The notes under the pieces were generated by a model. The model saw only the letters and a list, made by a program, of their open reading frames with translations, did no database searches and had not been told where the DNA came from. Shown here one piece after another: positions 21,279 through 34,532 of a DNA stretch of 34,532 nucleotides (positions within the stretch are counted from its first letter, which is position 1; each line of letters begins with the position of its first letter). The stretch is from a bacterium HR24. Its GTDB lineage: Bacteria > Chloroflexota > Dehalococcoidia > SM23-28-2 > HRBIN24. Position numbers and translations under genes: made by a program. The stretch is from contig BEIA01000010.1 of NCBI GenBank assembly GCA_002898715.1, forward strand, positions 1 through 34,532, given 5' to 3'.

Positions 21279-21354
21279 GGCCCCGTGGTGTAGCGGCCAA
21301 CATGCCTCCTTGTCAAGGAGGAGAGCGCGGGTTCGAGTCCCGTCGGGGCCGCCA
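21279..21354 (+). tRNA. tRNA-Asp (anticodon GTC)
   Basis: The 76-nt cloverleaf has acceptor arms GGCCCCG and CGGGGCC, a D-arm beginning GTGTAGCGG, anticodon stem CCTCC/GGAGG around loop TTGTCAA with anticodon GTC at 21312-21314, and a T-arm GCGGG-TTCGAGT-CCCGT. The discriminator G and an encoded CCA end the gene. A prophage integrase gene starts 130 bp downstream, so its 3' end is the likely attachment site. Confidence 0.96.
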
Positions 21355-21484: not shown

Positions 21485-22402
21485 ATGCTGCAGAGGACCG
21501 ATGCCGGCACCACTACGGGCCTGGGCTGGGCGGAGTATCTGCGCCAGTGGGAGGTCCACCTGCGGGCGCGGGGGCTCGCCACCAGCACCATCGCCTGGTA
21601 CCTGGGCCTCATGCGGGAGGCAGCCGCGAGGCTGTCGGCCCTAGGCCTGCCCGAGGCCCCCGCCGCCATCACCCGGGAGCACATCGAGGAGGTCCTGGCG
21701 TCCCTCAGGGAGGGGCGCGCGCCCGAGACGCTGCGGGCCTACTACAAGGCGCTGCGGGCCTTCTACCGCTGGCTGCTGGACGAGGGGGAGGTGGCCCGCC
21801 ACCCCATGGAGCGGCTGCCCTGGCCCAAGGTGCCCCCCAGGGCGCCGCGGGGGGTGACGGCCGATGAGGTGCGGGCCATGGTGCGGGCCTGCGGGCAGGA
21901 CGTGCTGGGCCGCAGGGATGCTGCGCTGGTCGCCTTCCTGTTCGATACGGGCTGGCGGGCCTCGGAGGCCCTCCAGGCGACGGTGGCGATGGCCAGGGAG
22001 GGGACCTACCGCGCCTTGGCCAAAGGGGGGCGCGAGGTGGTGGCGACCCTCTCGCCCCGCGTCCAGGAGCTGGTCAACCGCTGGCTGCGGGCCCGGGCCC
22101 AGCTGCCGGGCGCCGGCCTTACGTCTGCCCTGTGGCTGGGGCGCAACGGCGAGCCCCTCACCCGCCACGGCCTTTACGAGATAGTCGCCGCCGCCGGCAA
22201 GCGGGTGGGGCTAGCCGTCCACCCCCACATGCTGCGCCACGGTCACGCCTATGCCTGGCTGGAGGCGGGGGGCGACGTCATGGACTTAAAGGAAAATCTG
22301 GGCCACTCGTCGGTGGCCGTGACCGAGACCTACCTGCGCTGGCAGGCGCGCGAGCGGGCACTGCGCGCCAGAGAGAGGCACGCGCCAGGGCTGGGCCTGT
22401 AG
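21485..22402 (+). CDS. int: Phage integrase, tyrosine recombinase
   Basis: A 305-residue tyrosine recombinase. The N-terminal ~115 residues are a SAM-like core-binding domain (YLRQWEVHLRARGLATSTIAWYLG, then LRAYYKALRAFYRWLL). The catalytic domain has R158 (GWRASEAL), K180 (LAKGGRE), H248-x2-R251 (HPHMLRHGHAYAWLE), H274 (LGHSSVAVT) and the nucleophile Y283 (ETYLRW), so the full set is present. GGGGGGA precedes the ATG. Position right after tRNA-Asp shows that it integrates the element there. It lacks an obvious N-terminal arm-binding domain before residue 15, so arm binding may be by the N-terminal domain or an accessory protein. Confidence 0.93.
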   Translation: MLQRTDAGTTTGLGWAEYLRQWEVHLRARGLATSTIAWYLGLMREAAARLSALGLPEAPAAITREHIEEVLASLREGRAPETLRAYYKALRAFYRWLLDEGEVARHPMERLPWPKVPPRAPRGVTADEVRAMVRACGQDVLGRRDAALVAFLFDTGWRASEALQATVAMAREGTYRALAKGGREVVATLSPRVQELVNRWLRARAQLPGAGLTSALWLGRNGEPLTRHGLYEIVAAAGKRVGLAVHPHMLRHGHAYAWLEAGGDVMDLKENLGHSSVAVTETYLRWQARERALRARERHAPGLGL

Positions 22403-24595: not shown

Positions 24596-25159
24596 CTAGA
24601 GGCGGGAGACGATGCCGGTCAGGTCGTCCAGGACCAGGTGGGTGTAGACGGTGGTGGTCTGGATGCTCGAGTGGCCCAGGAGGCGCCGGACGGCCTCCAG
24701 GTTGCCCGAGCGGCGCAGGGCGGTGGTGGCGAACCAGTGGCGGAGGGCGTGGGGGTGCAGGAGGCGCCTGGGGACGCCTGCCTCCCTGCCCAGGCGCTCC
24801 ACCAGGTACTGGAGGGCGCGGGTGGTGATGGGGCGTCTGGGGTCCTGGGGCGATGGGAAGACGTAGGCGCTTCGCAAAAGTGACATTTTGCGAAGCGCCA
24901 GGAGCGCCTCCGCCACCCGAGGGTGGGCGGGCACGAGTCTGTCCTTGCGCCCCTTGCCCATCCTCACCCTGATGACCCCTCCCTCCACGTCGTCCCAGCG
25001 CAGCTTGGCCACCTCCGACACCCGCAGCCCGGCGTAGGCCATGAGGAGCACCGCCGCCAGGTCGCGGGGGCCCGAGGCCTCGGCCCGGGCGATGATGGCC
25101 TGGACCTGGGCGTCATCGGGCGCCTCGGGCAGGCGGCGGGGGGCGCGTCTCCTGGCCAT
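24596..25159 (-). CDS. Catalytic-domain-only tyrosine recombinase (XerC/D-like)
   Basis: A 187-residue recombinase consisting almost wholly of the catalytic domain. R46 (YAGLRVSEV), K69/K72 (GKGRKDR), H137-x2-R140 (HPHALRHWFATT), H163 (LLGHSSIQTT) and Y172 (VYTHL) are all present, so it should be active, but the ~100-residue N-terminal core-binding domain is missing: only MARRRAPRRLPEAPDDAQ precedes the first catalytic helix. A perfect 14-6-14 bp inverted repeat lies within its codons ~87-98. The start overlaps the upstream zinc-ribbon gene by 47 bp and has an SD-like GGGGGAG. It could resolve phage multimers, cut a dedicated site, or be a captured Xer fragment. Confidence 0.85.
   Translation of the reverse strand: MARRRAPRRLPEAPDDAQVQAIIARAEASGPRDLAAVLLMAYAGLRVSEVAKLRWDDVEGGVIRVRMGKGRKDRLVPAHPRVAEALLALRKMSLLRSAYVFPSPQDPRRPITTRALQYLVERLGREAGVPRRLLHPHALRHWFATTALRRSGNLEAVRRLLGHSSIQTTTVYTHLVLDDLTGIVSRL
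24866..24899. repeat. Perfect 14-6-14 inverted repeat, candidate recombination core site
   Basis: The arms GGCGCTTCGCAAAA and TTTTGCGAAGCGCC are exact reverse complements separated by GTGACA. The layout (two inverted binding arms around a 6-bp centre, AT-rich at the inner ends) is that of dif- or lox-type tyrosine-recombinase sites. It has no U-tract and lies inside a recombinase gene, so it is unlikely to be a terminator. I see no second copy in the window. Confidence 0.6.
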
Positions 25160-27405: not shown

Positions 27406-27866
27406 GTGACCGTCACCACCGCCGCCGCCAGGACGACGCCTAGCTCCGGCTCCACCACCTGCAGCGTGTAGGTGCCGGGAACTGTGGCCGTGAAGGGCAC
27501 CTGGACGCTCCCGTCAGGCCCAGGGGTGTATGTATGCTGCTGCCCCAGGACGTCCAGGGTGATGGGCGCTCGGTAGGCGGCAGGCTCGCCCGTCTCGGCC
27601 ACGGCCCAGCGCAGGGTGACCGTTCCCTGCTGGCCCACCGCGAGCTGGGCGGGGGCCGCGATGCTCGGCCGCAGGTAGCGTGTGCCGTCCCACCTGTCGC
27701 CGGGCTGAATGGGCAGCCAGGTGCCGTCGGGCCTCTGGGCGGTGCGCAGCTCGTAGCCCTGCGGCACCACGTAGGGCGCGGCCCACGGCTCCGTGGGCAG
27801 CGCGAACTCTATCTCGATGAGGTTGGCCACGAGGCCGTCGCTCGTCCTGACTAGTGCCGCCCTCAT
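27402..27866 (-). CDS. Tail-tip accessory protein with Ig-like C-terminal domain
   Basis: A 154-residue protein. Residues ~1-60 (MRAALVRTSDGLVANLIEIE...WLPIQPGDRWDG) resemble small phage tail-fibre accessory domains, and residues ~70-154 are a beta-sandwich of Ig/BIG-like type (QGTVTLRWAVAETGEPAAYRAPITL, then TYTLQVVEPELGVVLAAAVVTV). It is start-stop coupled (ATGA) to the glycine-rich adhesin upstream, suggesting that both act in the same tail-tip complex. The ORF track shows it as the end of a longer frame that is otherwise a shadow of the glycine-rich gene. Confidence 0.6.
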   Translation of the reverse strand: MRAALVRTSDGLVANLIEIEFALPTEPWAAPYVVPQGYELRTAQRPDGTWLPIQPGDRWDGTRYLRPSIAAPAQLAVGQQGTVTLRWAVAETGEPAAYRAPITLDVLGQQHTYTPGPDGSVQVPFTATVPGTYTLQVVEPELGVVLAAAVVTVT

Positions 27867-28564
27867 GAGACCGGCTCCACCCACTCGATGATGACGATGC
27901 CCGCAGCGCCATTGCCGCCGTTGGTGGTGCCGCTGCCACCGCTCCCACCGCCCCCGCCCGGGCCCTGGCCATTCTGGCCATTGCCTGTGCTGGCGCCGTT
28001 CCCTCCGGGGCCGAAGCCGCCGCCGCCGCCGCCGGGGCTGCTGCCGCCGGTGCTGAAACCGCTGCCGCCGCCGCCGCTGCTGCCGCTGCCGCCGCCGCCG
28101 CCGACTAGGACCGCCTCGCCCAGAACCACCGGGGTGGAGGTGCCACCGGGGGAGCCGCCGCTGCCGCCGCTCGATACACGGCCTGCATTTACTGGGCCGG
28201 CGATGGCGCTGCCGCCGCTGTTGGTGCCGGCGCTGCCGCCACCCAAGGCTTGGACGAGCGTTACGCCGCCCATGCTGACGCTGCTGTTTCCACCTGCTGA
28301 CCCGTTCCCACCGGCCGTCCCGCCTGCCCCCCCTGCGCCGACGGTGATGGACAGGTCGCCCGTGACGCGTATGGGGAAGCGGTAGACGGTGCCGCCGCCC
28401 CCACCGCCGCCGTTGGCACCGCCGTTGCCGCCCCCACCACCACCCGCGACGGTGACCCACACCAGCTCCACCCCGGCCGGCCGCACCCAGGTGCCGGAGG
28501 CGGTGAAGAGCTGCTGGCGCAGGCGACCACCGGCCGCTGCAGCCGGGTAGGTAAAGATGCCCAT
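27863..28564 (-). CDS. Glycine-rich tail protein, probable receptor-binding adhesin
   Basis: A 233-residue protein. The N-terminal ~35 residues (LFTASGTWVRPAGVELVWVTVAG) match the entry motif of phage glycine-rich tail domains. It then contains many runs of glycine (GGGGGGNGGANGGGGGGG and GGGGGGFGPGGNGASTGNG) with Ser/Asn interruptions, ending in a strand AAGIVIIEWVEPVS. Polyglycine-rich domains of this kind fold as packed polyglycine II helices in adhesins such as gp38 of T-even-like phages, with loops that bind receptors. It is flanked by tail-fibre and Ig-like genes. The exact fold is inferred, and the repeats make it prone to length change. Confidence 0.7.
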   Translation of the reverse strand: MGIFTYPAAAAGGRLRQQLFTASGTWVRPAGVELVWVTVAGGGGGGNGGANGGGGGGGTVYRFPIRVTGDLSITVGAGGAGGTAGGNGSAGGNSSVSMGGVTLVQALGGGSAGTNSGGSAIAGPVNAGRVSSGGSGGSPGGTSTPVVLGEAVLVGGGGGSGSSGGGGSGFSTGGSSPGGGGGGFGPGGNGASTGNGQNGQGPGGGGGSGGSGTTNGGNGAAGIVIIEWVEPVS

Positions 28565-31279: not shown

Positions 31280-33580
31280 TCACCTCCCTAGTAGGCCGTG
31301 GAAGGCCCCGCGCCGCAGCGCGTCGCGCACGATGGCCGTTATACGCTCCTCGAACCCCAGCTCGCCGTATACCGGCCCGTGCACGGCAACGTTGACGACG
31401 ATACCCCCACCCACCACAGCGGGGGTAGGCGCAGCAGTGGGGGCCGGCATCCCGGCCACTAGGCCCGTAACGTCCCCCATCAGGCCCTTCAGGTCGGGCA
31501 GGCCCGACTCGATGCCGGCCATGAGCCCCTCCATGATGGCCCGCCCGTGGGGCACCAGGAGCCGCACGTCGTCGGTAAGGGGGCCCTTCCAGGAGGTGAT
31601 CTTGTCCTTCAAGTCCCCGAGGACGCCCTTGAGCTCCCCTGCCATGGACTTGATGCCGTCTATGAGCCCCCGGATAAGGGCACGCCCGGCGCCCCACAGC
31701 AGGCTGCCCAGGTCGCCGAGGGCGTCTAGGATTTGGCCTGGTATGCCTCTAACCGTCTCCAGCAACCCCCACAGCGCCATTCCTACCCCGTCTTTCATCC
31801 TGTTGAAGGCCCCCACCACCAGGTCACGGGCTGCATCTGCTGCCCCCGCCACCAGGTCACGGGCGTTGCCCATGATGCCCGCGGCCAGATCACGCAGCGC
31901 GGACACGGCCCCGACCACACTATCCTTCATGGCCTCGAAAGCACCCACTACCAGGTCACGGGCCGAATCGGCGATGCCAGACAGGGCGTCCCTCAAGGCG
32001 CCGAAGGTGGCCTCGCCCGCTTCCTTGAGGCCGTTCCAGATGCCCTCGAGGGCCTCCTTGGCACCGTTCCAGATGCCCTCTAGCTGGGCCTTTAGCTGCT
32101 CGAATGCCTCCCGCACCTTGTCGCGGATGCCGAAGGCGTTGGTGGTGAAGAGGACCACCAGCCCCGCCGGCCCCAGCAGTATCAAGGAAGCGATGGAGAC
32201 GATCTCCTGCCAGTTGCGCGCCAGGAAGTCCTTGACCTCGCCCCAGATCCTGACGATGTGGTCACGCACGAAGTCGAAGGCCTGCATTATCTGGTCGCGG
32301 AAGATGAAGGCAGCCACGCCTGCCCCGATGAGGCCCACGGCGATGAGGCCCGCCGGCCCCAGCACGGGCAGGAGCCCCATGATGGAGGACATGAGGGGGC
32401 CGGCGATGGCCGATGCCAGGCCCGACAGAGCGCCCGTGACGCTGCCGATGACGGGGGCGAGGGGCCCGGCCAGGGCGGCCACGATCTGGAAGGCCGGCCC
32501 CAGCTGCTGCGTGAGCTCCGAGGCCCGCCCCAGGATCTCGTGCCCCAGGATCCTGAGCTTGGCAGTGATGGTGGAGTCGATCTGGTCGGCGGCCTGGGCC
32601 GTTGCGCCCTGGACGCTTTGTAGGTCTACCTGGAACTGGGCCAGGGAGCCGCCCGACTGGGCCAGAGCGTTGGCGAGGGCAGGGCCGGCGCGGGTGCCGA
32701 AGAGGTCGATGGCCAGCTGCGCCCTCATGGCCGGGTCCTCCATGGACATGAGGGCCTGGGTGAGCACCTGGAACTTCTCGGCCGGCGAGAGGGCGAGGAA
32801 CTGCTGGAGGGCATCGCCCGAGAGGCCGATCTGCATGCCCAGCTGGGCGAGCTTCTGCTGGCCCGTCTCGCTGGTGTCGGTGAGGACGTTCAGGGCCTGG
32901 TTGAACGCCCGCGCCGTCCCCTCGGCGTTCACGCCGGCGGTGGCGAAGAGGTTGATGTAGCCCAGGGCGTCGTTCACCGAGAGCCCCAGGGCCGAGAAGC
33001 TGGGCGCCATGCGGTTGAGGACGTCCAGCGCCCCCTGGACGTCGGTGCCGAAGCGCCGGTGGGACTCCACCAGGGCGTCCATGATGCCGGTGGCGTCCTC
33101 GGCCGTGAGGCCCCAGGCGTCCAGCACGTCGTCGAAGAGGGCCACGGCCTGCGCCGCGTCCACACCCGTCACCTTGCTGAAGTCCAGGTAGGCCTGTGCC
33201 AACTGCCGCATCTGGACAGCATTGGACGTGCTGACGCCCTGCAGGGTGGCGAGACCCTCCATGACGGCGGCGATGGCCTCGCGGCCCTGGGTGTTGGAGC
33301 GGAAGAGGTCGTTCAGGACGCCCGTCATGGCCCGCACGTCCGCCGCCGAGGCCCCGGTGACGGCCCCGAAGCGGGCCATGAGCTCGCTTGTCTGCAGCAC
33401 GTCCTGCGCCAGGGCCTGGAAGGCCTCCCCCACGCCGAGGCCGGCCAGGGCACCCAGGGCCGTCCGCACGAGGCCCGACACGTTGCCGAGCCCGCCCAGC
33501 CGCTCCTGGACGCCGGCGAGGGCCGCCGAGGCCTCGTCCCTGGCCCGCAGCAGCAGCTCCAGCGTGGCGCTAGCGGCCAT
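31280..33580 (-). CDS. Phage tail tape measure protein
   Basis: A 766-residue tape measure protein that sets tail length and helps DNA entry. The N-terminal half is a TP901-type core (AAVMEGLATLQGVSTSNAVQMRQLAQAYLDFSKVTG, then DALGYINLFATAGVNAEGTARAFNQAL), followed by a hydrophobic membrane-active stretch around residues 370-440 and a repeat-rich helical section with three copies of ARDLV-GA type motifs and two LEGIWNG units. The C-terminus has the GLIDGIKSMAGELK element. At ~1.5 A per residue the tail would be about 115 nm, an inference. It overlaps the chaperone extension by 11 bp. Confidence 0.92.
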   Translation of the reverse strand: MAASATLELLLRARDEASAALAGVQERLGGLGNVSGLVRTALGALAGLGVGEAFQALAQDVLQTSELMARFGAVTGASAADVRAMTGVLNDLFRSNTQGREAIAAVMEGLATLQGVSTSNAVQMRQLAQAYLDFSKVTGVDAAQAVALFDDVLDAWGLTAEDATGIMDALVESHRRFGTDVQGALDVLNRMAPSFSALGLSVNDALGYINLFATAGVNAEGTARAFNQALNVLTDTSETGQQKLAQLGMQIGLSGDALQQFLALSPAEKFQVLTQALMSMEDPAMRAQLAIDLFGTRAGPALANALAQSGGSLAQFQVDLQSVQGATAQAADQIDSTITAKLRILGHEILGRASELTQQLGPAFQIVAALAGPLAPVIGSVTGALSGLASAIAGPLMSSIMGLLPVLGPAGLIAVGLIGAGVAAFIFRDQIMQAFDFVRDHIVRIWGEVKDFLARNWQEIVSIASLILLGPAGLVVLFTTNAFGIRDKVREAFEQLKAQLEGIWNGAKEALEGIWNGLKEAGEATFGALRDALSGIADSARDLVVGAFEAMKDSVVGAVSALRDLAAGIMGNARDLVAGAADAARDLVVGAFNRMKDGVGMALWGLLETVRGIPGQILDALGDLGSLLWGAGRALIRGLIDGIKSMAGELKGVLGDLKDKITSWKGPLTDDVRLLVPHGRAIMEGLMAGIESGLPDLKGLMGDVTGLVAGMPAPTAAPTPAVVGGGIVVNVAVHGPVYGELGFEERITAIVRDALRRGAFHGLLGR
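31818..31963. repeat. Three 14-bp direct repeats inside the tape measure gene
   Basis: ACCAGGTCACGGGC occurs at 31818-31831, 31851-31864 and 31950-31963, encoding the repeated ARDLV motif. The spacings are multiples of 33 bp (33 and 99), that is 11 residues, matching an 11-residue helical repeat. Confidence 0.7.
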
Positions 33581-33779
33581 GGCGCCTGAGCCTCCTCACC
33601 TCCAGCTCCTCCAGCTCCCGCCGTGCCCGCAGGATGAGCAGGGCCCCTTCTACCCAGCGCAGGGGCAGGCGCGCAAGGTCAAAGGGCGAGCAGTTGAACT
33701 CGCGGCAGAGGGCCATGACGGCGGCCACGTCAGCCAGCTCCTTCGGCACCTTCCCTGAAAGCAGCTCCAGCCGGGCGAT
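33570..33779 (-). CDS. Tail assembly chaperone frameshift extension (gpT-like)
   Basis: A 69-residue segment with no start of its own nearby, in the +1 frame relative to the upstream chaperone. It reads IARLELLSGKVPKELADVAAVMALCREFNCSPFDLARLPLRWVEGALLIL and ends RRLRRHGR. It is placed as the gpT extension of lambda-type tail chaperones: between the G-like gene and the tape measure, overlapping the latter's start. Translation through CC-AAAAA-T with a +1 shift would join it to residue 136 of the upstream protein, giving a ~205-residue fusion. A one-base sequencing error in the A5 run is the alternative. Confidence 0.7.
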   Translation of the reverse strand: MARLELLSGKVPKELADVAAVMALCREFNCSPFDLARLPLRWVEGALLILRARRELEELEVRRLRRHGR

Positions 33780-34188
33780 TTTTGGCGTCCAGGCGGCGGG
33801 AGGCGTAGTAGGAGTCCACGGCGTCCATGAGGGCCCGCACCAGCCAGTCGGGCAGCCGCTCGATGGCCCGCCTCCTCTCCTCCACCGTCCCCACGGGCAC
33901 CTTCCGCCCGTCCTTGTCGGCGAGGCTCCAGTCCAGGATGGCGTGGACCAGGAGGGCACGGCGGGCGGCCAAAAGGTCCAGCTCCAAGGGGATCTCCGCC
34001 CCCCTGGCATCGGAGGAGGAGAGGAGCATGCGGGCCCGCAGCCCCTCCCGCTCCACCGCCACCGCCACGCCGTAGGGCAGCTCGGCGTAGACCTCCACCC
34101 AGTCCTCGGAGCCCTCGAGGCGGGGGACGGGCAGGTCGCGCAGGTAGATGCGGTGCCGGGCCTCGGGGTCGATGAACAGGCTCTCCAT
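33730..34188 (-). CDS. Tail assembly chaperone (gpG-like)
   Basis: A 152-residue protein (MESLFIDPEARHRIYLRDLPVPRLEGSEDWVEVYAELP...) in the position of the lambda gpG chaperone, between the tail tube and tape measure genes. It is helical and charged (EERRRAIERLPDWLVRALMDAVDSYYASR). After residue ~138 the frame drifts into a low-complexity Ala/Gly end (RPAGAAFREGAEGAG), while the +1 frame continues with a normal-looking protein, which is typical of a frameshift pair. No similarity to gpG is visible by eye, so the name rests on position, size and frameshift arrangement. Confidence 0.72.
   Translation of the reverse strand: MESLFIDPEARHRIYLRDLPVPRLEGSEDWVEVYAELPYGVAVAVEREGLRARMLLSSSDARGAEIPLELDLLAARRALLVHAILDWSLADKDGRKVPVGTVEERRRAIERLPDWLVRALMDAVDSYYASRRLDAKNRPAGAAFREGAEGAG
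33777..33786 (-). other. Candidate ribosomal frameshift site (GCC AAA AAT C)
   Basis: On the minus strand the chaperone reads GAC GCC AAA AAT CGC in frame 0, and ACG CCA AAA ATC GCC in the frame of the extension. Slippage of tRNA-Lys from AAA to the next AAA by one base forward gives ...D-A-K-I-A-R. Classical X-XXY-YYZ -1 slippage would not give the right frame. Confidence 0.55.
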
Positions 34189-34198
34189 GGCGGGCCTC

Positions 34199-34532
34199 CT
34201 AGGGCAGGCTGGCGACGTCGTTCTGGACGCGGACGACGAAGTCGGCAGCGAGCGCCGGGTCGTACTCGCTCTGGAACTCGAGCTCCATCACCGTCATGCC
34301 GTCCTCCTCCTCGGGCGGGAGCGCCCCCACCTCCCGCCACCGCCCGTAGGCGTCGATCTGGACGAAGCGCCGGTAGGTGCCGGAGATCACGGGGCCCTCG
34401 ATGTGCAGCCGCAGCTTGCGGGGGGAGGCGGCGGCGAACTGGGCCCACTCGGCAGCCCAGGTGCTGTTGAAGACCCCCCGCAGGGTGATGCTCAGCTCCC
34501 GCCGCTGCTCGGAGTGGAGGCTGAAGACGTCT
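34199..34532 (-). CDS. Probable tail tube protein, C-terminal part (truncated by window end)
   Basis: The frame is open to the right edge and ends 10 bp before the chaperone start. The visible 110 residues are (D)VFSLHSEQRRELSITLRG...NSTWAAEWAQFAAASPRKLRLHIEGPVISGTYRRFVQIDAYGRWREVG...MTVMELEFQSEYDPALAADFVVRVQND. Alternating strands and the position directly upstream of the chaperone pair and tape measure identify it as the major tail (tube) protein by genome order; by eye the sequence itself gives no clear family match. The GTG at 34390 of the ORF track is internal. Confidence 0.65.
   Translation of the reverse strand, partial: DVFSLHSEQRRELSITLRGVFNSTWAAEWAQFAAASPRKLRLHIEGPVISGTYRRFVQIDAYGRWREVGALPPEEEDGMTVMELEFQSEYDPALAADFVVRVQNDVASLP

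Follow-up and report, generated by a model that had tools for sequence, protein, structure and literature searches.

The window, i.e. the whole 34,532-nt stretch of bacterium HR24 DNA that was analysed, contains, within a siphovirus-like prophage, what is probably a tail assembly chaperone gene of the lambda G/GT type; both a short protein (G) and an extended protein (GT) are predicted to be made from it. Judging from the sequences compared, it is likewise probable that GT would arise through a +1 programmed frameshift at an AAA-A sequence near the end of G. The computed support for this reading consists of an offset and a site kept in an independent viral contig, the confinement of the frame switch in that contig, a codon-rarity signature at the site, constraint on the T frame, the order of the genes and a chaperone-like fold of G. 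The contig used for comparison, L010 (IMGVR_UViG_3300005858_000007), comes from a different dataset and is about 20% divergent from the window.

Layout of the chaperone locus

The features of the locus, all on the minus strand, are the following.

34188-33730, minus strand: ORF of the likely G-type tail assembly chaperone, 152 aa, with ATG start and TGA stop (ORF listing); 80% identity to the equally long G of L010, and an AlphaFold model similar to viral models named tail assembly chaperone
33777-33786, minus strand: proposed +1 slippery site GCC AAA AAT C, with P-site AAA at 33783-33781, 0-frame A-site AAT at 33780-33778 and +1 A-site ATC at 33779-33777
33570-33782, minus strand: extension of T type in the +1 frame, comprising 70 codons counted from AAA ATC and a stop; 73% identity to the T of L010, substitutions rich in third positions, profile similarity to the T of a more distant relative (L005)
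31280-33580, minus strand: tape measure protein, 766 aa (phrog_58, E 5.4e-57; PF10145, E 1.1e-20)
34199-34531, minus strand: C-terminal portion of a tail protein encoded upstream, likely the tail tube/major tail protein; equivalent to the end of L010 ORF 3062-4060, which matches phrog_290 (tail)
33726-33743, minus strand: AAGGAG-N9-GTG adjoining the G stop, a possible start of a separate T (sequence reading); a similar GGAG-N9-GTG is found in L010

Profile matches in both the window and L010 give the gene order tail protein, G/T, tape measure, and the layout is that of the lambda G/GT type, with a short ORF and an overlapping extension in another frame lying between a tail protein and the tape measure. 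The upstream tail protein gene is incomplete because the window stops at the contig edge (34532). The A5 run occupies 33783-33779, where the G frame reads GCC AAA AAT CGC and the T frame (+1, equal to -2) reads AAA ATC GCC. From the A5 run the T frame is open to its stop at 33570 and overlaps the tape measure ORF by 11 nt, which confirms both the offset of the extension and its overlap with the tape measure start as claimed in the earlier note. The description of T as lacking a start holds near the A5 run but not elsewhere, as a GTG (33728) and, further downstream, an ATG lie inside T. Similarly, the end of G, previously described as low-complexity sequence, is composition-biased (Ala/Gly/Glu-rich), though not truly of low complexity. 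An A5 run on one strand of 619 nt is expected by chance in approximately 0.25% of cases (1 of 400 simulations under a Markov-1 model of the prophage), and given this simulation and the recurrence of the run in L010, its presence at the G/T junction is more than chance. Annotation pipelines would otherwise miss the T domain at this locus.

The identity of G was approached through both sequence and structure. Searches of sequence libraries with G returned only a sub-threshold PHROG match (phrog_3096, E 0.26) and no Pfam match. An AlphaFold model built from six related G proteins, of moderate confidence (pLDDT 72), gave no match in a fold search against the PDB, while in the fold search against BFVD the matches at ranks 3, 7, 13, 17, 20 and others carry the name tail assembly chaperone, with E values from 1.7e-3 to 2e-2; the viral models matched include proteins of Bacillus phage Gemini, Gordonia phage Teatealatte and Xanthomonas phage Suba. 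Owing to these fold matches, which rest on a predicted model, together with the gene order, G is likely a tail assembly chaperone.

Conservation of the frames and the site

Across the 619 nt of the locus, the window and L010 differ at 137 positions, and the tape measure proteins share 59% identity in the best segment. Despite this divergence, the A5 run, the TCG, the +1 offset and the protein lengths are all kept; AAAAATCG is shared by both sequences at an equal offset (405), and the first indel occurs only in the last few codons of T. The +1 site is carried by these two sequences, so its conservation is that of one pair. On the length of the A run and the frames, which the earlier note had singled out for comparison with relatives, L010 also has five A bases, and both parts were found in one frame in none of the relatives examined. 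The T frame of L010 runs TTG ATG TGA AAA ATC and has a TGA stop directly 5' of AAA ATC. A single continuous frame upstream of the site is thereby ruled out in L010, and the frame switch is confined to the AAA or later.

The positions of the substitutions between the window and L010 indicate which frame is constrained in each part of the locus. Upstream of the A5 run, the substitutions on positions 1/2/3 of the G frame number 25/15/38, and past the G stop those on the T frame number 11/6/22. In the region where G and T overlap, the 11 changes are distributed 4/2/5 over the T positions, a pattern with a likelihood ratio of 7.6 favouring T-like over G-like evolution. BLOSUM scoring of the overlap in the same pair did not separate the two frames, for which reason only the substitution positions were used. 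The overlap test thus modestly supports constraint on the T frame, but with 11 changes and no separation by BLOSUM it is not decisive. The T frame 5' of the GTG at 33728 is also kept between the two sequences (KI.R..LLSGK.P.ELAD).

Codon context and proposed mechanism

Codon usage was derived from genes inside the window (ten host genes and eight phage ORFs), and all sites with an in-frame homopolymer codon followed by the same base (NNN-N) were ranked by the ratio of the frequencies of the +1 and 0-frame A-site codons. The chaperone site ranked first among the 88 such sites in the 18 host and phage genes, with a ratio of 27.8 compared to 5.6 for the next, and no other site examined has a codon context as favourable to a +1 shift. 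The 0-frame A-site codon AAT occurs 1.6 times per 1000 codons in the ten host genes and the +1 codon ATC 48.8 times, while the lysine codons AAA and AAG occur 2.3 and 22.8 times, respectively. As a codon pair, AAA AAT occurs nowhere else in the 18 genes, and the other in-frame NNN-N sites within the G gene, at codons 22 and 63, both lie far upstream. The host tRNA genes found include tRNA-Lys with UUU and CUU anticodons and one tRNA-Asn (GUU), and on AAAA the P-site tRNA-Lys can move with perfect re-pairing from one AAA to the next, which overlaps it in the +1 frame.

From these data we infer the making of the fusion, the exact P-site step, the efficiency of the shift and the function in the tail, as follows. 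The majority of ribosomes would translate G and terminate at 33730, while a minority would slip +1 at GCC AAA AAT C. At that moment the P site would contain AAA and the A site the rare AAT; tRNA-Lys(UUU) would re-pair onto the +1 AAA that overlaps the first, and decoding would resume with the common codon ATC. Appending T in this way (...DAK-IAR...) would produce a GT fusion of 205 aa. As in lambda, the tape measure protein may be bound by both G and GT, and the tail tube protein may be recruited by GT. Forward slippage of a P-site tRNA-Lys on AAAAA, as proposed in the earlier note, is the best-supported reading, in view of the T-frame stop in L010 and the top-ranked codon context.

A Shine-Dalgarno-like stimulator was not found just upstream of the site in the window sequence. 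A hairpin 3' of the site does not stand out in the window (z -0.26), and the corresponding part of L010 is more structured, giving no convincing shared stimulatory structure. Since the downstream RNA folding in the window is not exceptional, no stimulator is claimed.

Alternative explanations

The main rival is that T is a separate protein, re-initiated by translational coupling at the GTG at 33728, one base past the G stop, with no frameshift involved. The AAGGAG located 9 nt 5' of this GTG fits such a start, as does the GGAG-N9-GTG at the corresponding place in L010, and possible internal T starts also occur in some of the relatives with a -1 T frame. Re-initiation would, however, give no reason for the T frame 5' of the GTG to be kept in L010 with its substitutions on T-frame third positions, and it leaves unexplained both the rare AAA AAT pair and the opening of the L010 T frame exactly at the A5 run. 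In the more distant relatives, moreover, the equivalent position is occupied by -1 slippery sequences, and we regard re-initiation as unlikely. A -2 shift, of the kind known for phage Mu, would yield the identical frame, with tRNA-Asn on AAT slipping two bases back onto AAA to give DAKN-IAR. Here tRNA-Asn(GUU) would be mismatched on AAA, in contrast to the perfect +1 re-pairing of tRNA-Lys, and the combination of a rare A-site codon and a common +1 codon is a +1 signature, which makes the backward slip very improbable.

The nature of the site itself could suggest slippage of the RNA polymerase, as it is an A run and the loss of one A in some transcripts would join the two frames. Yet five A bases are a short run for slippage, transcriptional slippage being cited for runs longer than 7 A (PMC3711429), and the rarity of AAT would be left unexplained; we give this possibility still less credence. 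Least probable of all, to a degree that makes it hardly credible, is that the true sequence is a single ORF, split here by gene decay or by a mistake in sequencing or assembly. The window belongs to an assembly fragmented into 159 contigs, of which it is C10, and the frameshift site is approximately 750 bases from the contig end, which would be compatible with an error. This explanation is rejected because L010 shows the identical A5 run and frames, and two frames are also kept in the distant relatives. A +1 shift of the RF2 (prfB) type, taking place at the G stop, was considered and discarded, as constraint on the T frame appears to act already ahead of that stop and tRNA-Gly on GGC would mismatch GCT, and a canonical -1 site of the XXXYYYZ heptamer type was ruled out by the position of T in the +1 frame.

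Comparison with known frameshifts

The +1 shift at AAA-A can be placed among several known systems. Chaperone shifts in long-tailed phages are usually -1, with +1 listed for HSTV-2 in a review (PMC5009743). The locus resembles lambda G/GT in its position before the tape measure and in its frameshifted T extension (PMC5009743), but lambda shifts -1 and the window +1, and no sequence match was found in the library. The tail chaperone counterpart of the haloarchaeal virus HSTV-2, on the other hand, shifts in the same +1 direction as the window (PMC5009743). In Listeria phage PSA, +1 shifts occur in the capsid and tail shaft genes (PMC5009743), i.e. in structural genes as in the window, but there the slip takes place on a proline codon, with a stop or a pseudoknot beside it (PMC5009743).

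The closest parallel in codon context is found in the mycobacteriophages, where +1 shifts in chaperone genes have been reported for cluster F1 members (PMC10793310, PMC11256854) and the chaperone record of Fruitloop is annotated '+1 programmed frameshift'. In all nine mycobacteriophage records compared (Fruitloop, Che8, UncleRicky, Mantra, Sarma624, Doomphist, Charlie, Saroj and Familton), T at +1 and the sequence AAA AGT GAT are invariant, the point of the shift being placed from the frames. As in the window, an A comes after AAA; in Fruitloop genes the A-site codon AGT is the rarer one (3.3 per 1000), and the +1 codon GTG is common (32.5 per 1000). The two differ in their sequences (AAA-AGT-G in the mycobacteriophages and AAA-AAT-C in the window) and in their hosts, and no sequence relation between them was detected. 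The window site also fits one of the two forward motifs of PRFect, motif 'four', defined as NNN-N in which the A-site codon is more frequent in the +1 frame than in the 0 frame (PMC10274946), which is a prediction rule and not an experiment. As the mycobacteriophage AAA-A sites and the PRFect motif precede it, the window site is a new example of a known +1 type rather than a new type. The expectation in the earlier note that the slippery sequence would be unusual thus holds only in part, as AAA-A combined with an A-site codon that is disfavoured is known from mycobacteriophage +1 chaperones. The locus lengthens the short list of +1 tail-chaperone shifts by a clear, conserved case whose host lineage is remote from mycobacteria, and it suggests a searchable rule for GC-rich phages, namely AAA-A followed by a rare A-site codon. 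As a separate observation, AAA AGT GAT is located near the end of G throughout L062-L070, mycobacteriophages of several genera, despite differing flanks, and may be a common forward-shift site.

Relatives and the direction of the shift

More distant loci have a related G, the same gene order and a T extension placed as in the window, but differ in that T lies in the -1 frame. L005 and L018 both have C CCA AAC at an equal offset, L006 and L017 have GGGGGGC and GGGGGCC, respectively, at the end of G, and L075 has the slippery sequence A AAA AAC. In L076-L079 and L081/L082, the latter being two loci of one genome that are identical over the examined part, a T-like open frame is likewise found in -1, with the slippery sequence worked out for some of them. 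Profile comparison relates the T of the window to that of L005 (prob 85.6), for which BLASTP gave no match, but it does not support a relation to the T of L075 (prob 7), where BLASTP likewise gave none. Both L006 and L075 are located in one genome (G147), whose related chaperone loci have unlike apparent -1 slippery sequences (GGGGGGC and AAAAAAC).

Deleting one base of the A run from the -1 site makes the T offset +1, which makes a one-base switch a reasonable proposition. It is conceivable, and we put it forward tentatively, as somewhat less probable than its converse, that the direction of the shift changed from -1 to +1 within one chaperone family by the loss of one base in the A run (from the A AAA AAC type to the AAA AAT C type), the rare AAT then being recruited to drive forward slippage. 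If true, this would provide a traceable one-base route between two recoding modes. Given the -1 T in the more distant relatives, the locus offers a route to studying how the direction of a shift can change with the balance of G to GT kept.

Scans of genome contigs with the tape measure and G revealed no relatives, and a search of annotated phages with G gave no match. Among the viral contigs, L002, picked up by the G protein search, was a false lead, and L012 and L013 are too distant to bear on the site.

Other features of the prophage

A tRNA-Asp gene (21279-21354) is located approximately 130 nt before an ORF resembling tyrosine integrases (21485-22402), which suggests a prophage attachment site; the other end of the prophage lies past the contig edge. 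A second, short ORF resembling tyrosine recombinases (24596-25159, minus strand, 187 aa) is found within the prophage region. Finally, a glycine-rich, repeat-bearing ORF (27863-28564, minus strand), accompanied by long open frames on the opposite strand and in other frames, possibly encodes a tail-fibre or adhesin-like protein.
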